Shown here one piece after another: positions 5,273 to 19,439 of a stretch of DNA of 22,354 bases (its first letter is position 1; every line of letters begins with the position of its first letter). Position numbers and translations under genes: made by a program. The notes below the pieces were generated by a model, which saw only the letters and a list, made by a program, of their open reading frames with translations, did no database searches and was not told the origin of the DNA. This DNA is from a virus, in IMG/VR virus record IMGVR_UViG_3300042868_011744, positions 1-22,354 of that record; one strand, 5' to 3'.

Positions 5273-6205
5273 ATGTTAGATGTTTTACATATACCGAGGC
5301 CTGAATTAAACAATTGGGTTTTTTATTCCACATCATCTGGAGCAACATCTACAAATGATTGGCAGATTTGGCAAAAACCTAAATATGCCAAATTTGTTGC
5401 GTTTTATGTTGTAGGCGGTGGCGCAGGTGGCGGTGGTGGCCAAAGTGGAGCTGGTTTAGCTAGAACAGGAGGCGGTGGCGGTGGATCATCCGCCATCACA
5501 AAAGGTATATTCCCATCAAATATGTTACCTGATATTTTATATATCCGTGTTGGTAAAGGTGGTCTTGGAGGAACATCTGGATCAAATGGTTCTTCAGGCG
5601 CATTATCTTATGTATCTACAAGGCCAGACATTCAAACCCCAAACGTGGTTTTGGCTAGTGGTGCTATTGCGGCGTCACCTGGTACTGCTGCTGGAGCAGG
5701 GGGTAGCGCTGGTACTGTCTTTGCTCAATCTGCAGGATTCCAAAGTTATTTGGGTATTATAAACACAACAGCTGGTCAAGCTGGTGCTGCTGGTGGCGCC
5801 AACACTGGTGGGGGTGGAACCTCAATTACTATAGCATCTATTAATAATAGTGGTGGTCCTGGGGGCGGAGGATCCTCGACTGCAAATGCTAATGGCGCAG
5901 GAGGTCAAGTTGCTGCAACAACAGTGACACCGATAATTACTGGAGGAACTGCAGGCGCTGTAAATAATGCAGCCCAAAACGGAGTCGCCTCATTTATACC
6001 ATCTTTGAATTCATCTAATTTAACATTTCCTTTTTTAACAACCGCTGGTGGTGGCGGTGGAGCAAATGGCGCCGCTGGACAAACAGGTGGAGCTGGAGGT
6101 AATGGTTCTTTTGGTTCTGGTGGTGGTGGCGGTGGCGCTGGAGGAACTGCTGGTGGAGCTGGTGGTAACGGCGGTGATGGAATAATAATTATAACTGTTT
6201 GGTAA
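5273..6205 (+). CDS. Glycine-rich adhesin-like protein, copy 1 of 3
   Basis: A 310-residue protein starting 6 bases after the previous stop. It begins with a conserved head, LDVLHIPRPELNNWVFYSTSSG, then NDWQIWQKP and KFVAFYVVGGGAGGGGG. The middle alternates glycine runs with variable spacers, and it ends in AGGNGGDGIIIITVW. The same plan recurs in the next two genes. Glycine-rich motifs separated by hypervariable loops are the layout of the gp38 receptor-recognising adhesins of T2/T6-like phages, where polyglycine II helices pack at the fibre tip. A role at the tip of the tail fibre is inferred from this likeness and from the adjacent fibre genes. A very acidic or Pro-rich reading in other frames here is a shadow of the Gly codons. 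Confidence 0.68.
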   Translation: MLDVLHIPRPELNNWVFYSTSSGATSTNDWQIWQKPKYAKFVAFYVVGGGAGGGGGQSGAGLARTGGGGGGSSAITKGIFPSNMLPDILYIRVGKGGLGGTSGSNGSSGALSYVSTRPDIQTPNVVLASGAIAASPGTAAGAGGSAGTVFAQSAGFQSYLGIINTTAGQAGAAGGANTGGGGTSITIASINNSGGPGGGGSSTANANGAGGQVAATTVTPIITGGTAGAVNNAAQNGVASFIPSLNSSNLTFPFLTTAGGGGGANGAAGQTGGAGGNGSFGSGGGGGGAGGTAGGAGGNGGDGIIIITVW

Positions 6206-6213
6206 AAAATAAT

Positions 6214-7113
6214 ATGGACGTATTTCACTTTCCTGATTCAAATAAAATACAATGGGTTTTTACTCCCAATGGTTCTACCAATTGGCAAATTTGGCAAAAA
6301 CCTGCCAATTGTAAATTTGTAAACATTCTTGTCATTGGCGGAGGCGGTGGTGGCGGCGGAGGCTCTGTGGGTGCCACTGCAACAAACCGAGCAGGTGGCG
6401 GAGGCGGAGGTGCTTCGGGAGTTGTAAGAGGGTTTTATAATGCCAACCTTTTACCGTCAATGCTTTGTATACAAGTTGGAAATGGCGGTTTAGGGGGCGC
6501 TTCTGCCGCAAATGGAACTGCTGGCGGTTTATCTTATGTTACCTTTGAGCCAACCACAACGATAGTTGCTTGTACATTTCTTAGAAGCGGAAATGCCGCA
6601 GCGGGTTTCGGAGCTACAATTGGGACAGGTGGATCTGCGGGCACTGCTTTTACTCAAGCGAATGGTGTATTAAATTATTTAGGTTTATTCCAAGCTACAA
6701 TAGGTACAGCTGGTACGGCTGGTTCTGCAGGGGGCGCAGGTGTACCAGTTGTAGTCAGTTTAATTGTAACAGGCGGCGCCTCTGGTGGTGGGGCAACTGG
6801 TGCCGCTGGACTAGCAGGTGGTAATATTACTGGACTTGGAGCTATACCTACAATTTCGGGTGGTACAACAATAACTGAGTCTCAAGGAAGTAATGGGTTT
6901 CAAACGATATATCCTTCTTTTAATAATGTTGTATCATCGCCTATTTTATTGACAGGTGGAGCAGGTGGATTGGGTTCATCTGCTGGACAAGGTGGAAATG
7001 GCGGAAAAGGAGCTTATGGTTGTGGCGGCGGAGGCGGAGGCGCTGGATTTACAGGGCTTGGTGGTCGTGGTGGTGACGGCGGTGATGGAATTGTAATAAT
7101 AACAGCTTGGTAA
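6214..7113 (+). CDS. Glycine-rich adhesin-like protein, copy 2 of 3
   Basis: A 299-residue paralog of the preceding gene. An upstream TTG at 6199 would overlap the previous gene, but the ATG at 6214 gives MDVFHFPDS, which matches the starts of the two paralogs (MLDVLHIPRP and MDIFNISDN), so it is chosen. The conserved head contains NWQIWQKP, then CKFVNILVIGG followed by a run of glycines. The protein has alternating Gly-rich and variable segments and ends GGDGGDGIVIITAW. The likely place is the distal fibre tip, binding a cell-surface receptor. Head and tail ends are conserved among the three copies while the central spacers differ, as expected if the spacers carry specificity. Confidence 0.68.
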   Translation: MDVFHFPDSNKIQWVFTPNGSTNWQIWQKPANCKFVNILVIGGGGGGGGGSVGATATNRAGGGGGGASGVVRGFYNANLLPSMLCIQVGNGGLGGASAANGTAGGLSYVTFEPTTTIVACTFLRSGNAAAGFGATIGTGGSAGTAFTQANGVLNYLGLFQATIGTAGTAGSAGGAGVPVVVSLIVTGGASGGGATGAAGLAGGNITGLGAIPTISGGTTITESQGSNGFQTIYPSFNNVVSSPILLTGGAGGLGSSAGQGGNGGKGAYGCGGGGGGAGFTGLGGRGGDGGDGIVIITAW

Positions 7114-7125
7114 TAATTAGACAAT

Positions 7126-8076
7126 ATGGACATTTTTAACATATCAGATAATAGTATACTTAATCAGGTTTTTTTCTGCACATCTTCAGGTTCAACTTCT
7201 ACCAATGATTGGCAGATTTGGGAAAAACCAAAAAATTGTAAATTCGTTAACATCTTAGCTATTGGCGGAGGTGGTGGTGGAGGTGCTGGATTCGGCGTCT
7301 TATCAAATGGAGCTCGTGGTGGCGGAGGTGGCGGATCAGCCGCAAACACAAGAGGTAGTTTTTTAGCATGTCTTCTTCCTGATAGATTATACATAAAGGT
7401 TGCTAATGGCGGAGCGGGTGGAACAAATTCGGTTGTTGTTGCTGCTGGAGCAGGAGGTATATCTTATGTATCAATACAGCCTAATACGACTTCGGGTAAT
7501 ATTTTATTAGCTAGTGGATCTGGAACTGCAGGGGCAGGAGCTGCGGGCGCTGCAGGTGGAGGTGGTACGGCAGGGACTGCAGGTGCTGTTTTTTCTCAAA
7601 CAAACTTTTATTTAAGCACTTTAGGTATTATTCAGACTATCGTTGGTGTTGCGGGTACAGCAGCTGGTGTAGGGGGTACAACTATGGCGTCTTATACAAT
7701 AGACAGGCTTTGTACACCTGGTTTAGGAGGGGCTGGTTTTACACTAGGTGGTTCTAGTGATATAACGGGAAATATTACAGGGGCTGGTTTCATCCCAACA
7801 ATTTCTGGAGGAACAAATAGTACTGCAGCTGTAGGCGGAGAAGGCGGTAGTGGTTTTCAGCCAATGAGACCAAGCGGTTCTGTGAACAATAGATATCCAT
7901 TCTTTTCTACGGGTGGAGCTGGAGGGGGTTCGAGTCAGTCAGCTAGAGGAGGTCGTGGTGGAGATGGGTCATTTGGTTCAGGCGGTGGCGGAGGTGGTGC
8001 AAATAACTCTGGGACAAACCTAGGTGGCGATGGGGGCGATGGAGGTGATGGAATAGTAATAATAACTGCATGGTAA
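7126..8076 (+). CDS. Glycine-rich adhesin-like protein, copy 3 of 3
   Basis: A 316-residue paralog of the two genes before it, starting 12 bases after the previous stop. The head is MDIFNISDN, then STNDWQIWEKP and CKFVNILAIGG with a glycine run. The central portion has long Ala/Gly stretches (for example GTAGAGAAGAAGGGG) and unique loops, and the end is GGDGGDGIVIITAW, almost identical to copy 2. The STSSG/SSGSTSTNDWQIW segment is closer to copy 1, while the CKFVNIL segment and the tail are closer to copy 2. This mosaic pattern fits exchange between copies. The role is inferred as for the other copies. Confidence 0.68.
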   Translation: MDIFNISDNSILNQVFFCTSSGSTSTNDWQIWEKPKNCKFVNILAIGGGGGGGAGFGVLSNGARGGGGGGSAANTRGSFLACLLPDRLYIKVANGGAGGTNSVVVAAGAGGISYVSIQPNTTSGNILLASGSGTAGAGAAGAAGGGGTAGTAGAVFSQTNFYLSTLGIIQTIVGVAGTAAGVGGTTMASYTIDRLCTPGLGGAGFTLGGSSDITGNITGAGFIPTISGGTNSTAAVGGEGGSGFQPMRPSGSVNNRYPFFSTGGAGGGSSQSARGGRGGDGSFGSGGGGGGANNSGTNLGGDGGDGGDGIVIITAW

Positions 8077-8960: not shown

Positions 8961-11726
8961 ATGACAGCACAACAAATATTGCAAGAGCGTATAAAATGCG
9001 CCAAAAGCCCTGTATATTTCCTTAATAATTATGGTTATGTTTTTGATGCAGTGGCAAAAAGCATCAGAAAAATGAAGTGCTTTGAATACCAAGAAAGGTG
9101 TGTAGATGTATTTCATAAAAACCAAAATTCAATAATACTTAAATCTAGACAATGCCTGCCTGGGGATACTTATGTAGATACACCAGATGGGCCAAAGGCA
9201 ATTAAGGATTTTAAATTTGGAGATGAAGTGTACTCTTATAATTTAATTTCTAATGAAGTTGAGGTTGATACAGTTTATGACGCTTGGTGTAGTGGTGATA
9301 GACAGTGTGTAAAATTTAAACTCCAGGATACAAGAAATTTTGAGACTGGAGAGAATCACCCATTTTATGTAAAAAACAAAGGTTGGGTTAAAGCTAAAGA
9401 TCTTCAAAGAGGTGATGAAATTATTGATGCTAATTTTGGATTTGGTGATGTGATTGCCAATGAAGATGAAATAAAGATACTTGCATACTTAATTACAGAT
9501 GGAAGCACAGGTAAGCAAGTTAAGTTTACAAATAATAATATTAATTATTTAGGCGAATTTGAAGAATCAATAAATAATGTATTTCCAGAATTATCGGTAA
9601 GAAAGTCTATAAAATTTAACGGATATGATTATTTTCCGCATCAAAAGCATGGGACAAGTTTAAAGAATCCGATAATGGAGTGGTGTGAAACGAAAGAAAT
9701 AGCAAATAAAAAAACTGAATTTAAACTTTTACCTAAAGAAGTTTTTAGTTGGAATAAAAAATCTGTTTCAATTTTAATAAATAGACTTTTTGCTGGAGAT
9801 GGATGGGTTAGTATTTGTAAAAAAGGCGAAAACAGTAAAAGACTAGAATTAGGAATAGCATCTCCAAGTGAAGAGTTCCTACATCAAGTTAAGTCTCTAC
9901 TTAAAAAGTTTGATATTAAATGCAATATTTATGAAGTAAAAAATATGAAATTGCAAAAAAACAAATTTTTTAAACTTAGAGTTACTCATTCGAAGAGCGC
10001 TACAAGATTTGTTAAAAACATAGGAATATTTGATAAGATAACACAAGAACACCACGATATTTGTGATAGTTATAAGCATAATGTAAAAGACAATCCAATT
10101 ATTAAAAAGATTGAAAAAACTGTAGTTAAAAAGTGTTACGACATTTCTGTAAGTAAAAATGAAAATTTCTTTATAGACGGATTACTTACTCACAATACTG
10201 GTTTATCTGTAATTACCGCAGGGTATGTAGCTTGGAGATTGATGTTTAGATACGATGAAAGAATTCTTATTGTTGCCAATGATGGAAACGGTGCTGAAAG
10301 ATTCTTAGAGACTGTTAAGCAATTCATAACAAATACACCTCAGTGGCTTCAGCCAGAATCAATACTTCTAAATAATAAAAGAAAATTAGTTTTTTCTAAT
10401 GGATCATGGGTTCAAGCAAAAGCTTCATCTCCAGATGCAGGTCGTGGTGATTCATTAACAATGCTTGTCTTGGATGAGACAGCCTTCATTAAAGATGCTG
10501 AAGCAATTTGGATGGCGGCAGGTATGGCGCTTTCAGCTACAAAAGGTAAGTGTATTATGATTTCCACGCCAAATGGTACAGGTAATTTATATCACAAGAC
10601 TTGGGTTGGTGGAACGAAAAAAGAAAATGACTTCGTACCACTTACAGTTCACTGGACTGAAAATCCTCAATCATCTGTCGGATTGCAAATAAACAAAAAT
10701 GTAAACGGAGAAGAATTCCCTTGGAGTCCTTGGTATGAAGAACAATGTAGAAGGATGAATTATGATAGTGTTAAGATTGCACAAGAGCTTGACTTATCAT
10801 TTGAGGGATCTAAATATCTTGTTATTGAACAACAATTAATCGATAAATACGAAAAAAGAGTAAGAGGTCAAAAGCCAAACTTCTACATTAAATATGACTT
10901 CAATCTTAAAGGAACACCTGAGTCAGGAAGTTTTATTATAGATGAAACCGCTTTCCATGTATGGAAAAGACCTGAAGAGGGGAGAAACTATATTATAGGG
11001 GCTGACGTCGCTCGTGGTGACGGGAAAGATTATTCCACAATTCAAGTATTGGATGCGGACACATTAGAACAGGTTGCGGAATATAGAGATAAGATTGGAG
11101 TGGATTTATTTCCGTATTTAATAGATTGGGTTGGAAGAATATATAATAATGCATATCTAGTTGTGGAGTGTAACTCTTTTGGTTTACACGTAGCTCTTAC
11201 CTTAAGAGATCATTTACAATATAAGAGAATGTTCTTCTCTAAAAATGTTCAAGACATTCACGTTAGACCTTACGATTACAAAGTAAATGAGGGAACTGAA
11301 ATACCTGGATTCCAAACTACAATGAAAACAAGACCGCTTGTTGTTGCTTCTATTATACAGCATATGAGAGAGAATTCTTTAATTCTTCATTCTCCAAGGC
11401 TTACTTCTGAGTTTTCAACATTTGTTATGGTTAACAACAAGCCTCAGCATGAGCCAGGGTTTAATGATGACTTGATATTTGGATTAGGATTGGCATTATA
11501 TGTTAGAGATAATGAGTACAATAATATTATCGCAACAGATGGTCTGTATAAATCAATGCTTAGTGCTATATCTTTCAATTCAAACAATATGATGGGTAAA
11601 ATAGAACACAATGGAAATGGTGGTAGAAAAGATATTGATGTTCCTGATGGTGGTAGTGGTTTATTTTTGGGCTCATCCTTTACGCAATCGGATGACGATG
11701 ATTTAGATTGGCTTCTAAAACCGTAA
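8961..11726 (+). CDS. terL: Terminase large subunit (T4 gp17-like) containing an intein
   Basis: ATP-driven DNA packaging motor and nuclease. The precursor is 921 residues; removing the intein (residues 65-412) leaves 573, close to T4 gp17 (610). After splicing the Walker A region reads KSRQ/TGLS at the junction, a deviant P-loop with Lys at its start (K61) and no Lys after the glycine. Walker B is LVLDE at 502-506, followed by a coupling motif IMISTPNG. The C-terminal RNase H-fold nuclease has GADVARG (D682), LVVECNSFG (E736) and FNDDLIFG (D836/D837) as the expected acidic triad. The ATG is preceded by a hairpin and a TATTTAT element. The portal gene follows 49 bases later. Function needs protein splicing, since the intein splits the ATP-binding loop. 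Confidence 0.95.
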   Translation: MTAQQILQERIKCAKSPVYFLNNYGYVFDAVAKSIRKMKCFEYQERCVDVFHKNQNSIILKSRQCLPGDTYVDTPDGPKAIKDFKFGDEVYSYNLISNEVEVDTVYDAWCSGDRQCVKFKLQDTRNFETGENHPFYVKNKGWVKAKDLQRGDEIIDANFGFGDVIANEDEIKILAYLITDGSTGKQVKFTNNNINYLGEFEESINNVFPELSVRKSIKFNGYDYFPHQKHGTSLKNPIMEWCETKEIANKKTEFKLLPKEVFSWNKKSVSILINRLFAGDGWVSICKKGENSKRLELGIASPSEEFLHQVKSLLKKFDIKCNIYEVKNMKLQKNKFFKLRVTHSKSATRFVKNIGIFDKITQEHHDICDSYKHNVKDNPIIKKIEKTVVKKCYDISVSKNENFFIDGLLTHNTGLSVITAGYVAWRLMFRYDERILIVANDGNGAERFLETVKQFITNTPQWLQPESILLNNKRKLVFSNGSWVQAKASSPDAGRGDSLTMLVLDETAFIKDAEAIWMAAGMALSATKGKCIMISTPNGTGNLYHKTWVGGTKKENDFVPLTVHWTENPQSSVGLQINKNVNGEEFPWSPWYEEQCRRMNYDSVKIAQELDLSFEGSKYLVIEQQLIDKYEKRVRGQKPNFYIKYDFNLKGTPESGSFIIDETAFHVWKRPEEGRNYIIGADVARGDGKDYSTIQVLDADTLEQVAEYRDKIGVDLFPYLIDWVGRIYNNAYLVVECNSFGLHVALTLRDHLQYKRMFFSKNVQDIHVRPYDYKVNEGTEIPGFQTTMKTRPLVVASIIQHMRENSLILHSPRLTSEFSTFVMVNNKPQHEPGFNDDLIFGLGLALYVRDNEYNNIIATDGLYKSMLSAISFNSNNMMGKIEHNGNGGRKDIDVPDGGSGLFLGSSFTQSDDDDLDWLLKP
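9153..10196 (+). other. Full-length intein with LAGLIDADG homing endonuclease inside the terminase
   Basis: Residues 65-412 of the precursor (348 residues). The N-terminal splice block begins with nucleophile Cys65 (CLPGDTYVDTPDG). The second splicing block has TGENHPFYV with the conserved His. Two LAGLIDADG-type dodecapeptides are visible, ILAYLITDGS (173-182, D180) and LINRLFAGDGW (272-282, D280), with both acidic residues kept. The C-terminal blocks are CYDISVSKNENFFIDG and LLTHN, ending His411-Asn412 before Thr413 as the +1 extein nucleophile. All blocks needed for splicing and homing look present. The boundaries were set by these blocks and by restoring the terminase motif SRQTGLS. Confidence 0.93.
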
Positions 11727-11775: not shown

Positions 11776-13971
11776 ATGGCTGAAGATAAAAAACCGCAAA
11801 GTATATTCCAAGGAGTTGTAGATGCAATAAATGGAGGTAAAAAGAAAACTCCTACCATGTCTGCTTCTGCTCAGTTTACTCCAAATAAATCAGATGGTTT
11901 AATCAGTGGCAGTGCTAATCCAGTTGAAGAAATGCAACAACAATTCTTGGATTGGCAGGTTAATAAAATAGCACACAACCTTTACACGAGATCGATATAT
12001 TTTGACACAGATAGAATTAGTGCATACCAAGATTTTAGAGCGATGGATATGTCGCCTGAAATTGCAGCAGCACTTAATATCATTAGAGATGAATGCTTAA
12101 CTAGAAGTGAGAAAGGTAATATTCTTGATATTTATTCGGAAAATTCTAGAGTAAAAGAAATATTAAAAGATTTATTTGGAAATAGAATTAACGTAGACTA
12201 CAACCTTAAACTTTGGATTCGTGATTTAATTAAATATGGTGATTATTTTGTATTCTTAGAAATTGATAAATCAGAAGGTATTTATAACTTTCTTTCTTTA
12301 CCAGTAGAGGAAATCCACAGAGAAGAGGCATATGATGGTAATCCTGAAAGTGTAAGATTCCGTTGGGAGACAATGGGTATGTATTTTGAGGATTGGCAAG
12401 TTGCACACTTTAGAATGTTGGAGGATACAAAAAAACTACCTTATGGTCGTTCGATATTAGATCCTGCTAGAAAACTTTGGAAGCAATTACAATTAGCAGA
12501 GGATTCGATGCTTGTTTATCGTATTACTAGAGCACCAGAAAGAAGAGTGTTTTATATTGAAGTTGGTAACTTGGGTGACCAAGATGTACAGGGTTATATT
12601 ATGAAAATCCAAAACCAAATCAAGAAACAACCTGTAGTTGATTCAAGAAATGGTCAATATAATTTGAAGTATGACCCAATGAACATCACCGAGGATTACT
12701 TCATTCCTATTAGGGGTGATAAATCTTCTAAGATTGATACATTGCCAGGGGCTTCAAATATGGGAGACATCCAAGATATTGAATATCTTCAAAATAAATT
12801 ATTTGCTTCATTGCAAGTTCCTAAGGCATATTTAAATTATGCTGAAAACTTACCAGGAGGATCAACGCTTTCGCAGGCAGATTTGAGATTTGCTAGAACA
12901 ATCAATTCAATCCAAGAAGTTGTATTGTTGGAACTTAGAAGAATAGCTAATATTCATCTTTTCTTCTCAGGTCTTAAAGATGAAATTGATAACTTTACAT
13001 TAACGCTTACAAATCCATCTACTCAACAAGAATTGTTGAAATTGGAAACAATGAAAGCGAGAATGGAAGTGTTTAAGGAGATGTATTCATCTGAATCTAA
13101 TTCTGCGGTTTCTTATACATGGGCTATGGAAAATATTCTTGGTTTCTCTAAAGCAGAGATTAAGCTTATATTGAAACAGAAAAAGGTTGAGAAGAAAATA
13201 TTTGCTGAAATTGACGCTTCGGTTGAAACTTACAAGAAAATTGGATTATTTAAAGAGCTTGATGATAGATACGAACTTCCAGGTGCAGCACCTGCAGGTG
13301 CAGCTTCTACAGGTGAAGAGTCTGCGGCAGGAGGCGGTGGCGGTGGAGCCGCAGGAGGAATGGGTAATCTTGAGCTTGGTAGCCAATTAGGCGGAATGGA
13401 AGCTGGTGGTGGCGGTGGCGCTGAAGCTGGTGGAGCTCCTGAGCCTGAGGCTGGTGGAGCACCTGAAGCTCCTTTGGCTGAGAATAGAGTGAGAGCTATT
13501 AAAAGAGTATTGGCTGAATCTGACAGAGATACTGATGATTTATTGTCAGATTTATTAGGTGACACATCAGATGCACCAACATTGTCAGAAAGAGAAGAAA
13601 AAGAAAATAAGTTATTACATAAGAATAAAAAGCTGAATTACAAAATCGAAAAAATGATTGAGAATATTCAGGCTAGTTTGGACGATACAAAAAAAGAAGA
13701 AAGAGAAGAGAGTGAGAAAAAGTTCCAAGAAAGTAAAGCTAAGAATAATTTATTCGAAAGAAGCGGAATGGTAATAGACAGAACTAATAGTATGTTTAAG
13801 CACTTAGAAGAAATGATGAATGGAAATAAAGTTTCTGGTTTTGATGTTGATAAGGCTGACATAATTAGCGAAGAATTTGTAGAGGAAGTTGAATTAAATG
13901 AAGAAAATATAATAGAGGAAGATTCTATTGAAACTTCTGAAGATATTTCTGAAGATAAAATAGATGAGTAA
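11776..13971 (+). CDS. gp20: Portal protein (T4 gp20-like) with long C-terminal extension
   Basis: Forms the dodecameric ring at the capsid vertex through which DNA enters. It follows the terminase directly, and residues about 60-500 look like the gp20 portal core: DFRAMDMSPEIAAALNIIRDE, WIRDLIKYGDYFVFLEID, VAHFRM, PYGRSILDPARKLWKQLQLAEDSMLVYRITRAPERRVFYIEVGNL, and DIEYLQNKLFASLQVPKAYL. T4 gp20 has 524 residues and this protein has 731. The extra part is a Gly/Ala/Glu/Pro low-complexity linker (about 502-570) and then a charged, probably coiled-coil tail ending in an acidic stretch. The ATG follows an A-rich leader. The stop overlaps the next start by one base (TAATG), which suggests translational coupling. 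Confidence 0.9.
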   Translation: MAEDKKPQSIFQGVVDAINGGKKKTPTMSASAQFTPNKSDGLISGSANPVEEMQQQFLDWQVNKIAHNLYTRSIYFDTDRISAYQDFRAMDMSPEIAAALNIIRDECLTRSEKGNILDIYSENSRVKEILKDLFGNRINVDYNLKLWIRDLIKYGDYFVFLEIDKSEGIYNFLSLPVEEIHREEAYDGNPESVRFRWETMGMYFEDWQVAHFRMLEDTKKLPYGRSILDPARKLWKQLQLAEDSMLVYRITRAPERRVFYIEVGNLGDQDVQGYIMKIQNQIKKQPVVDSRNGQYNLKYDPMNITEDYFIPIRGDKSSKIDTLPGASNMGDIQDIEYLQNKLFASLQVPKAYLNYAENLPGGSTLSQADLRFARTINSIQEVVLLELRRIANIHLFFSGLKDEIDNFTLTLTNPSTQQELLKLETMKARMEVFKEMYSSESNSAVSYTWAMENILGFSKAEIKLILKQKKVEKKIFAEIDASVETYKKIGLFKELDDRYELPGAAPAGAASTGEESAAGGGGGGAAGGMGNLELGSQLGGMEAGGGGGAEAGGAPEPEAGGAPEAPLAENRVRAIKRVLAESDRDTDDLLSDLLGDTSDAPTLSEREEKENKLLHKNKKLNYKIEKMIENIQASLDDTKKEEREESEKKFQESKAKNNLFERSGMVIDRTNSMFKHLEEMMNGNKVSGFDVDKADIISEEFVEEVELNEENIIEEDSIETSEDISEDKIDE
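13426..13473 (+). repeat. 24-base tandem duplication in the portal linker
   Basis: GCTGGTGGAGCTCCTGAG at 13426 recurs as GCTGGTGGAGCACCTGAA at 13450, encoding AGGAPEPE and AGGAPEAP. It lies in the Gly/Ala/Pro-rich linker between the portal core and the charged tail. Such low-complexity repeats can change length by slippage. Confidence 0.8.
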
Positions 13972-14243: not shown

Positions 14244-17200
14244 ATGAATGAAATTTGTAATAATAAAAATTGCAATTGCGGTAAACAACATACATATCAT
14301 GATGATTTAACGGGGGTAGCAAAAGAGAATTTACATAAGGCAATGGATACTTTCGAAGAACGAAAGTATGAATTAAAAAACATTATAACAGAAGAAGATA
14401 GAAGAAAAAGACCAATGGTTCATCTTCATCTTCACACTTTCCATTCTATATTGGATGGTTGTGGAAGTATTGATAATTATGTAAAACTAGCTAAGGAGTA
14501 TAATCATCCCGCAATTGCTGTTACCGATCACGGTACGCTTTCGGGTACTTATGAGCTTTTCAAAAAATGTAAAGCTGGAGGTATAAAATCCATTATGGGT
14601 ATGGAAGCCTACGTGAACGATAGGCAGGGTGAATTTGAGGAGAAAAAATATGAGGGTGGAAAGTCTCATCAATCCATATTTGTAATGAATCAAGAAGGTT
14701 TTGTCAACATTAATAAATTGGCATATCGTTCTTATGATGAAGGTTTTTATAAGAGAGGTAGGATTAAGACAGATTGGTTATTTGAACATAAACAAGGTTT
14801 GTTTTTGACAACATCTTGTGCTGTTAGCTATATGTCTAAAATGGTTCAAGAAGGCAAAGAGACTGAAGCTGAAGAATATCTAAAAGGTCTTATGAGGGAG
14901 TTTGGAGATAATTTGGTTGCCGAATTGCAATTTAATGAATATGAAGGTCAAAAAATTTACAATAGTTGGCTTTTGAAGATGATAAAAAAGTATAGTTTAA
15001 TGCCTATACTTACAAATGATGTTCATTATGCATTTAAAGAAGATGCTGAATTGCAAGACACTCTTATTGCAATAAATCAAAAGTCCAAGCTAGGAAATTC
15101 TTTTAAGCTTAGTACGAGAAATCTTTACTATGCTAATGTTGATGATTTTCATATTTTCAACAAACAATTTGGTTTTAATTATCCAGAGTCTTTTGTGGAT
15201 ATGTGTTTGGATAACACGTTAAAAGTTGCAGAGAAGTTAAATTATGAATTTGACACGAAGACTGAAAAATATCCTAGATATGAAGTGACTACTGATGTAT
15301 TAGATTATTTCAAAACAGATAACAACGAAGAGATAATCACAAGGCTTGCATTTGGCAAGTTAAAGCAAAAGTTAAATAAGTATCGAGAAAATAATCTTGT
15401 TGAAATCACTCCAGAAAAAGAACAAGAATATCATGATAGATTGGTCTACGAATTAGAAGTAATTAAGGAAAAAAATACACTTGATTACTTTTTGGTTTAT
15501 TGGGAGTTGATTAGAGACTATAGAAAGAAGGGTTATAATATCGGTCCTTCTAGAGGTTCTGCAGGTGGGTGTTTACTTTCTTGGTGTCTAGAAATTACAG
15601 ATATTGATCCTATACGATTTGATTTATATTTTGAAAGATTCTTGAATCCAACTCGTAAGGGCTTGCCAGATATCGACGTGGATTTTATGACAGGAACTGA
15701 TGATGTTACAAATAACTTCCTGCGTGAGAAATATGGAAAGAATCGTGTTTTAAGTGTTTCCACTTTCTCAACCTTTAACGAAAAAGGTTGTTTGAAAGAT
15801 GTTGTTAGGGCTCATTTCGGTGATGAGGAAACAGGTTTCGAATCTGATGTTCATGCTGTAACCAAAGAAATGCCAAATTTTGACAAGGTTGAATATTCAT
15901 TGGGTGATTGGTTTGAGAGATGGCCAAATGATCCTGCGTGTTCAGATAGAGTGAGAAGATGGCTTACTGATAAAAACAATAGAAAAATATTAGACCAAAC
16001 ACTTAAGTTGCAGGGTCAGATTAGAGGTATTGGTCAGCACGCAGCAGGTATCGTTATTACGCCAGGTCCTTGTTGGGAATATTTGCCGACAAATATCATC
16101 GCATCAAACAAAAGTATTGTAACAGCATTCCAAGAAGCAGATAAGAGTGGTAAGGATTTGTCTGAATTAAACATATTAAAGTTAGATAGGTTAAAACTTG
16201 AAACGCTTAACGTAATAGAAGATACGATAAAGATTGTAAAAGAAAAGCATGGCTACGATATAACTGATAAAGTTAGAAACGTAAAGCTGAATGATGAAAA
16301 TCTATTTATTGAGCTAAGACTAGGAATGAATCATGGTATATTTCAGTTTGAAAGCCCTGGGATGAATGCTTTGATTAGAGGTATGGCAACAGAAAGTTTT
16401 TCTGAGCTTACAGCGGCCAATGCATTATATAGACCTGGGCCTATGGGTATTGGTGCTCATGAAGAGTTTATTAAGAACAAGTTTAATTCTGAGAACATTA
16501 AATATGTTCACCCAGCTCTTGAAACAATATTGAGCGAAACAAACGGCGTATTGATTTATCAGGAGCAGTTAATGTTCTTAGCTAATAAGATTGGCGGAAT
16601 GAGCTTAGGGGAAGGAGATATGCTTCGTAGGTATATGGATAAGGCAAGTTCTGCAATTATGAAAAAATCTGCAGGTGAAACTCTTAATAAAAAAGAGAGC
16701 GATAATTATGTGGAGTTTGAAAAATATTGGAACAAATTTATTGAGGGTGCCGTAAAAAATGGATATAAAGCTGATGAGGTTGATATTATTAAAGATTGGG
16801 TAATTAAATACTTAGGTTATTCATTCAACAAGTCTCACTCAACGGCATATGCATATCTTGCTATGCAAACTCTTTATCTAAAACATTATTACCCAACGGA
16901 GTTTTATACTGCTTTGTTAAATCACCCCAAAACTAGTGGTGGTAAAGAAAAGGAGCAGGCTTGGTTGGCAGCGGCAATTGCTTCAGCAATGTCTAAAGGT
17001 ATTGTAATTTCTCCTCCGTCTAGAAAATCTGGTTGGACTTGGACTATGACAGGAGATAAAGAGATATCTATGGGGTTTTCAGGGATAAATGGTCTTGGGG
17101 ATATAGCTTATCAGGAATTGAACGCTTTAATGGGTCAAAAAAATAAAAACCTACAAAATATAAGCGTATCTGAGTTTTATGATTTGCCTTTCTCAAAATT

Positions 17201-17777
17201 TAATAAAAAAGCATTTGAATCTTGTATTAAGGCAGGCGTTTTTGATGATTGGTCTGAATCTAGAGAATATCTTATAGCTTTAAGAGAGAAGAAAAAGAAA
17301 AAAGTTGTAGTGGCGAATCAGATGTCTCTTTTTGATATGAGTTCCAAGGAATTTGATATCAAAACAGATGATATAGGTCACCATCTAAAGACAACAGATG
17401 CTCAAAAAAGAGAAGAGTTTATAGAGGTTTGTAATTTCGATTTGGAAAAAATTAGCTTTATGATGAAGATTAAGACAGTCATAAACGGAAAAGCCAAGAA
17501 GCCTATTGATAATGTAATAAACTTCGAAGATGAAGGTTGGTATTTCTTTGTGTTGGAAGAGTTTAAGACGATGCTTTCAAAAGCGGGAAAAGAATATTTA
17601 ACACTTCGTGTTGGAGATGGTATTAATAGTACGACATTGAGGGTATTTGATCCACTAGCTAAAAAAATTAAGCCAGAATTAATGGATAATGGAGTTTATG
17701 TTGCAAAGTTCGAAAAGAATGATGGTGGGTTTATTAATTTTGCAAGAAATACACAATTTAAGAGAGTTGAAATATGA
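14244..17777 (+). CDS. dnaE: DNA polymerase III alpha subunit (family C, DnaE-like)
   Basis: A replicative DNA polymerase of 1177 residues, near the length of E. coli DnaE (1160). After a short Cys/His-rich start (C5, C10, C12, H16) comes a PHP domain with HLHLH (60-64), D71, H96, E121, H142, D259 and H261, so its metal-binding set looks largely intact. The palm has GPSRGSAGG, then PDIDVDF with D476 and D478, and LKLDRLKLE with D648 as the third acidic residue. FQFESPGM, ALYRPGPMG, VLIYQEQLM and FNKSHSTAYAYLA are further family motifs. A helix-hairpin-helix (INGLGDIAYQEL) follows, then QMSLF at 1026-1030, a canonical sliding-clamp motif, and a C-terminal OB fold. The gene overlaps the RNase H gene by four bases (ATGA). 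T4 itself uses a family B polymerase. Confidence 0.95.
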   Translation: MNEICNNKNCNCGKQHTYHDDLTGVAKENLHKAMDTFEERKYELKNIITEEDRRKRPMVHLHLHTFHSILDGCGSIDNYVKLAKEYNHPAIAVTDHGTLSGTYELFKKCKAGGIKSIMGMEAYVNDRQGEFEEKKYEGGKSHQSIFVMNQEGFVNINKLAYRSYDEGFYKRGRIKTDWLFEHKQGLFLTTSCAVSYMSKMVQEGKETEAEEYLKGLMREFGDNLVAELQFNEYEGQKIYNSWLLKMIKKYSLMPILTNDVHYAFKEDAELQDTLIAINQKSKLGNSFKLSTRNLYYANVDDFHIFNKQFGFNYPESFVDMCLDNTLKVAEKLNYEFDTKTEKYPRYEVTTDVLDYFKTDNNEEIITRLAFGKLKQKLNKYRENNLVEITPEKEQEYHDRLVYELEVIKEKNTLDYFLVYWELIRDYRKKGYNIGPSRGSAGGCLLSWCLEITDIDPIRFDLYFERFLNPTRKGLPDIDVDFMTGTDDVTNNFLREKYGKNRVLSVSTFSTFNEKGCLKDVVRAHFGDEETGFESDVHAVTKEMPNFDKVEYSLGDWFERWPNDPACSDRVRRWLTDKNNRKILDQTLKLQGQIRGIGQHAAGIVITPGPCWEYLPTNIIASNKSIVTAFQEADKSGKDLSELNILKLDRLKLETLNVIEDTIKIVKEKHGYDITDKVRNVKLNDENLFIELRLGMNHGIFQFESPGMNALIRGMATESFSELTAANALYRPGPMGIGAHEEFIKNKFNSENIKYVHPALETILSETNGVLIYQEQLMFLANKIGGMSLGEGDMLRRYMDKASSAIMKKSAGETLNKKESDNYVEFEKYWNKFIEGAVKNGYKADEVDIIKDWVIKYLGYSFNKSHSTAYAYLAMQTLYLKHYYPTEFYTALLNHPKTSGGKEKEQAWLAAAIASAMSKGIVISPPSRKSGWTWTMTGDKEISMGFSGINGLGDIAYQELNALMGQKNKNLQNISVSEFYDLPFSKFNKKAFESCIKAGVFDDWSESREYLIALREKKKKKVVVANQMSLFDMSSKEFDIKTDDIGHHLKTTDAQKREEFIEVCNFDLEKISFMMKIKTVINGKAKKPIDNVINFEDEGWYFFVLEEFKTMLSKAGKEYLTLRVGDGINSTTLRVFDPLAKKIKPELMDNGVYVAKFEKNDGGFINFARNTQFKRVEI

Positions 17778-18966: not shown

Positions 18967-18983
18967 TAATAGAAGAATTTTTG

Positions 18984-19439
18984 ATGAAAAAGATAAATTT
19001 TAAGAAGGCGGCAAATAAGGAGTTAAATAAAGCAAAGAAACAAGCTAGAAATCCTTTAGGGTCAGGTCAAAATTTGAAAAAGAAAGCCTCTAAGATGTCA
19101 AAAACAATGACAAAACCAGAGAGGGAAATGAATCAAATTTTGGAAGAGTTAAAAGTTGAGTTTGAGCCACAAAAAGTTGTTGGATTTAAGATTTATGACT
19201 TTTATGTTCCTCAAGCGAATTTATTGATTGAAGTTGATGGAGATTATTTTCACGCAAATCCTGAAGTGTATACAGAAGGAAATTTGAACTCGATGCAAAA
19301 GAGAAATGTGAAAAATGATGAGTTTAAAGATACTCTTGCCAATGGAAGAGGTTATAAGTTAACTAGAGTTTGGGAAAGTGATTTGGCAAACAAATACGAA
19401 GAAGTAAAAAATAGCATAAAAAAACAAATAGGTTTATGA
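18984..19439 (+). CDS. Vsr/DUF559-type PD-(D/E)xK nuclease
   Basis: A 151-residue putative DNA endonuclease. After a very basic N-terminus (residues 1-44) comes TKPEREMNQILEEL (E46/E48), then VVGFKIYDFYVP with D72, LLIEVDGDYFH with E83, D85 and H90, and a C-terminal RGYKLTRVWESDL. This order matches the very-short-patch-repair-like fold of the restriction-endonuclease superfamily, common as free-standing nucleases in phages. The ATG at 18984 is preferred over the adjoining TTG at 18981. The stop overlaps the next start by four bases (ATGA). Its target is not visible: a homing nuclease, a recombination or repair nuclease, or host DNA degradation are all possible. No Zn or GIY-YIG motif is present. 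Confidence 0.75.
   Translation: MKKINFKKAANKELNKAKKQARNPLGSGQNLKKKASKMSKTMTKPEREMNQILEELKVEFEPQKVVGFKIYDFYVPQANLLIEVDGDYFHANPEVYTEGNLNSMQKRNVKNDEFKDTLANGRGYKLTRVWESDLANKYEEVKNSIKKQIGL

Follow-up and report, generated by a model that had tools for sequence, protein, structure and literature searches.

The terL locus and its insert

All positions below follow the numbering of the window, which spans positions 1-22,354 of record IMGVR_UViG_3300042868_011744. The window carries a T4 gp17-like large terminase gene (terL) at 8961-11726, and a portal gene of the T4 gp20 type comes after it. These T4-like packaging genes are adjoined by a gene at 14244-17777 for a phage-encoded bacterial-type DNA polymerase III alpha with a PHP domain. 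Three consecutive, similar glycine-rich ORFs (5273-8076; 310, 304 and 316 aa) possibly encode tail-tip or adhesin proteins, and a small ORF at 18981-19439 with DUF559/homing-endonuclease-like matches (PHROGs 559 and 3339) is a possible free-standing homing endonuclease. The terL reading frame has the following parts.

8961-11726, plus strand: terL ORF, T4 gp17-like large terminase precursor of 921 aa (phrog_2, E=9e-38; T4 gp17 3ezk, E=4e-32)
8961-9152, plus strand: N-extein, residues 1-64, ending in ILKSRQ (joined directly to the C-extein in L002, a contig of another record, and in other empty alleles)
9153-10196, plus strand: intein of 348 aa, Cys65-Asn412 (domain matches, alignment, model)
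9153-9437 (approximate boundary), plus strand: N-terminal splicing half with block A CLPGDTYVDTPDG and block B GENHPF (TIGR01445, alignments)
9450-10082 (approximate boundaries), plus strand: LAGLIDADG homing endonuclease domain (PF14528; model; PI-PfuI, PI-SceI and I-DmoI matches)
9480-9503, plus strand: first LAGLIDADG motif, LAYLITDG, with intein Asp116 (Y112 and D116 invariant in 22 sequences)
9774-9803, plus strand: second LAGLIDADG motif, LINRLFAGDG, with intein Asp216 (D216 and G217 invariant in 22 sequences)
10131-10196, plus strand: C-terminal splicing blocks F and G, YDISVSKNENFFIDGLLTHN, with the penultimate His and Asn348 (TIGR01443; D330, H347 and N348 invariant)
10197-11726, plus strand: C-extein, residues 413-921, starting with the +1 Thr413 (TGLSVITAGY; alignment to T4 gp17, empty alleles)

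An earlier note on this DNA had placed a 348-aa intein at 9153-10196, with splicing blocks at both ends and two LAGLIDADG motifs with their Asp residues; its coordinates proved exact, and both sets of motifs were recovered. The insert starts with CLPGDTYVDTPDG and ends with GLLTHN, followed by Thr, and it is in frame with no stop codon within it. It matches Intein_splicing (PF14890, E=4e-14) and LAGLIDADG_3 (PF14528, E=6e-12) in Pfam, as well as intein_Nterm (TIGR01445, E=1e-6) and intein_Cterm (E=3.5e-4) in NCBIfam. In an alignment of 22 related inteins, the H347-N348 end, D116 and D216 (the latter within LFAGDG) are invariant, and Cys1 is almost fully conserved. The AlphaFold2 model of the intein has a mean pLDDT of 94, and its best solved-structure matches in Foldseek are whole homing-endonuclease inteins (TliVMA, PI-PfuI and PI-SceI) over the full-length fold. 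An RNA intron was ruled out by the in-frame insert, the absence of a stop codon and the matches to protein-splicing families. The features of a class 1 intein (Cys1, block A and a HINT fold; H347-N348 and Thr413; intein-free homologues with contiguous exteins) are found together with those of a LAGLIDADG homing endonuclease (the fold itself and a catalytic Asp in each of the two motifs). On this sequence evidence, we put the probability that the terL insert is a class 1 homing intein at roughly 95%. The predicted spliced junction peptide is QTGLSVITAGYVAWR. Block B is the only clearly irregular splicing block, as its TxxH reads GENH, with His69 present and Gly at the Thr position. This Gly is common to the whole close intein group, and distant members at the same site have Thr; relative to canonical inteins, the Gly could slow splicing down.

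The insertion point and the deviant Walker A motif

The claim that the intein interrupts the Walker A loop holds for the position of the insertion but not for the classical sequence of the motif, the two halves of which are as follows (a slash marks the insertion point in the motifs below).

9141-9152, plus strand: N-terminal half of a deviant Walker A, K61-S-R-Q64 (K61, R63 and Q64 invariant in 12 homologues)
10197-10208, plus strand: C-terminal half of the Walker A, TGLS, with no GK lysine (aligned to T4 gp17 L164-T167, LGKT)

In the sequence alignment to T4 gp17, on which the placement rests, the junction falls between Q163 and L164 (SRQLGKT); the model of the intein-free L002 TerL (mean pLDDT 44.9) was left unused. 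The spliced loop KSRQTGLS has no GK[ST] lysine and carries Leu at the position of T4 K166, and it thus departs from the canonical Walker A GxxxxGK[ST]. Some terminases are known to carry deviant Walker A motifs (Mitchell and Rao 2004, cited in PMC5727402). Just before S-R-Q, K61 is invariant in the terminase family, and this holds for Flavobacterium and Microcystis phages without an intein too. The Q/T position is a recurrent P-loop intein site, distinct from the Lys/Thr site of TerL1-a, Stickynote and KLEB27-3, because distant inteins sit at the equivalent position both in canonical-GK terminases (WHRR/SGKE and WCRR/SGKD; L072-L074) and in other deviant terminases (KCRQ/SGIS, KCRQ/CGIS and KARQ/TGFS; L067-L069). 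Splicing chemistry requires a nucleophile at +1; in line with this need, Thr stands there at every scored occupied site, whereas empty relatives also show Met or Gln.

Intein-free alleles and recent homing

Eighty terminase loci were gathered with the C-extein alone as query, and thus with no selection for the intein; two were unscorable, and near-duplicate contigs were counted separately. The P-loop site carries a full intein in 17 of the 78 scorable relatives and an endonuclease-less mini-intein in 3, and it is empty in 58. L022 and L113 have a short N-extein, and their site state was taken from the reading of the junction and is not empty. The alignment of intein-free terminases across the site, which the earlier note had proposed as a check, revealed that the 58 simply do not have the segment, contrary to the gap-free alignment of homologues that would have told against an intein. 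The mini-inteins that are readable whole (about 141 aa in L025/L140 and about 132-135 aa in L117) keep both splicing ends, and the endonuclease is absent. In a tree built on the first 122 C-extein residues only, which is short and has many weak forks, the window clusters with empty alleles and the intein carriers are scattered.

The empty allele of L002 comes from a phage with 96.6-97.5% DNA identity to the window over 5.6 kb. Its terminase is 99.8-100% identical to the window exteins, with SRQ joined straight to TGLS and the gap falling exactly at the predicted intein junction; the C-extein dS between the two is 0.06. The intein itself, by contrast, has 98.1% DNA identity to that of L007/L038 (one contig), with which the exteins share only 80-84%. 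The synonymous divergence between the window and L038 is correspondingly uneven, with a dS of 0.09 for the intein and about 1.0 for the C-extein. The intein of the window is flanked on both sides by donor-like DNA.

9129-9152, unstranded: upstream co-conversion tract of donor-like DNA (96% identical to L007/L038 versus 75-78% outside)
10197-10216, unstranded: downstream co-conversion tract (100% identical to L007/L038; 25% different from L002)

This donor-type patch at the junction totals 44 bases. Between 25 bases upstream and 15 bases downstream of the junction lie 9 of the 25 terL SNPs that separate the window from L002, a cluster matched in density by none of 5000 simulated scans. Co-conversion of flanks on double-strand-break repair from a donor has been described for T4 introns (PMC2988022). 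Because the dS of the intein is so far below that of the terminase and the junction carries the donor-type patch, the window intein appears to be a recent homing event from an L007-type phage. The dN/dS of the endonuclease is 0.05-0.2 in nearly all pairs, and its sequence is therefore being maintained. Intein anatomy, the empty site, horizontal transfer, the co-converted flank and selection on the endonuclease can be regarded as established at the level of sequence.

A conversion tract between the window and L002 would likewise be left if the window allele were ancestral and L002 had lost its intein precisely, via recombination or conversion with an empty allele. We consider such a loss unlikely, as L002-L038 identity in the tract is near its outside level (75-83% versus about 72-79%), so that L002 is unremarkable there, whereas window-L038 identity climbs to 96-100% from 71-79% farther out; moreover, the distance between the window and L007 is 10-fold smaller for the intein than for the exteins.

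Proposed mechanism and the question of packaging timing

For the gain of the intein by the window phage, we propose a multistep mechanism in which (i) the terminase would be translated as a 921-aa precursor; (ii) the intein would excise itself by means of Cys1, Asn348 and the +1 Thr, joining residue 64 to residue 413; (iii) ligation would restore the ATP-binding loop KSRQTGLS; (iv) the LAGLIDADG endonuclease would cleave the terL gene of a co-infecting phage at its uninterrupted site; and (v) repair templated by the occupied copy would add the intein along with a few tens of flanking bases. The window copy would have come by such homing, recently, from an L007-type phage. We infer that both splicing and cutting take place and that packaging ATPase activity is lost before splicing. 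Because the insertion point splits the P-loop, the unspliced precursor is very probably inactive, with splicing needed to rebuild the loop. Judging from its persistence, the L002-type allele would be functional without an intein.

A selfish homing element accounts for everything seen, and we favour this reading because a near-identical sibling lacks the intein, its carriers are patchily distributed and the window copy arrived recently. The earlier note had suggested that splicing sets the timing of packaging, that is, that the intein is retained as a switch through conditional splicing. Insertion in the P-loop would indeed make terminase activity depend on splicing, some inteins are reported to splice conditionally (PMC7360933 and PMC5790916), and Kelley et al. 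suggest such roles for terminase inteins (PMC5050341). However, nothing in the present analysis supports a timing role: the near-identical phage L002 and 58 of the 78 scorable relatives do without the intein, the element arrived recently by horizontal transfer, its endonuclease is under purifying selection, as homing predicts, and mini-inteins persist too. It is thus very improbable that the intein is retained for this purpose, and equally so that conditional splicing gates assembly of the packaging ATPase post-translationally, with timing differing between the window phage and the intein-free L002. Less probable still is a non-splicing or decayed insertion, with the segment translated through or the gene inactive, for which the Gly at the block B Thr position would speak, given that the terminal catalytic residues are intact and conserved in 22 relatives, the splicing-domain dN/dS is about 0.05 or below against the three closest intein relatives, and there are no stops between exteins that are themselves undamaged and match the empty allele at 99.8-100% identity.

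Further inteins in terminase and portal genes of relatives

In L058 (contig IMGVR_UViG_3300017917_005124, 4001-5044 and downstream) and L037, the terminase ORF is 1744 aa long and contains three inteins, located at the P-loop (KSRQ/TGLS), the coupling motif (MIS/TPNG) and the nuclease active site (IIG/CDVARGDG). Every catalytic centre of this terminase is interrupted by an intein, and the one at the coupling motif ends in Gly-His-Gln, not His-Asn. The terminases of L014/L047/L088 and of L066 hold two inteins each, at the P-loop and the coupling motif, and L014/L088 carry a portal insert besides. In-frame intein-type inserts are found at several sites in the portal genes of L007, L041, L022, L021, L014 and L118 (RDE/CLTR, VYRY/TRAPERR, DTLPGA/SNMGD and one more in L118), matching window portal positions near 12097, 12450, 12550 and 12752; those at DTLPGA/SNMGD and RDE/CLTR hold HNH-like stretches. 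The portal insert of L059/L147 is probably a mini-intein, with 453 bases versus about 1410 bases in relatives. A single contig, L144, encodes two distinct terminase P-loop segments, KSRQVGLS in one frame and KSRQLGLS in another, and neither has a +1 nucleophile. The terL-portal pair is a hot spot for inteins in these phages; the window has only the terL intein.

Comparison with known terminase inteins

Terminase P-loop inteins are established in mycobacteriophages, splicing and empty-allele cutting included (PMC5050341). Like the window intein, TerL1-a and TerL1-b are homing inteins that interrupt the large terminase at its Walker A loop (Kelley et al. 2016, PMC5050341), and TerL1-b was spliced in a reporter, while its endonuclease cut the empty allele (PMC5050341). 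TerL1-a separates the invariant Lys from the Thr and TerL1-b sits one residue away, whereas the window site is three residues upstream (Q64/T), and the window terminase, unlike the hosts of TerL1, is of the T4 gp17 type with a deviant Walker A. P-loop terminase inteins are also present in the annotated phages Stickynote (Corynebacterium) and KLEB27-3 (Bacillus), but these occupy the classic K/T position (GSAK/T and RIGK/T) and have 23-32% identity to the window intein. In crAss-like phages, terL inteins occur as well, two per gene in some (PMC7886860). A close intein at the same site was not found in annotated phages; the best, with 24.7% identity, is that of the crAss-like phage cr53_1, the only annotated phage whose intein spans the full query, and it is inserted elsewhere, after the Walker B region. 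MT835482 was rejected as a same-site relative, since its intein sits at another site, and a genome scan for bacterial and archaeal relatives of the intein gave 114 pattern hits, none of which was confirmed. Inteins of the TliVMA/PI-SceI type share the whole-length fold, a splicing domain with an inserted LAGLIDADG endonuclease, but differ in host gene and DNA target, with 10-16% sequence identity.

In summary, the window intein is a further case of the established terminase P-loop inteins, at a less usual position and in an uncultured phage group for which no close annotated relative was found, and by itself it leaves the general knowledge of inteins unchanged. Its insertion position, upstream of Lys/Thr and used across several terminase lineages of metagenomic phages, is added to the known terminase P-loop sites. 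The window and L002 form a clean natural pair, almost identical but for the intein and with the co-conversion tract still readable, which makes them well suited to quantifying homing and the cost in fitness of carrying an intein in a packaging motor.
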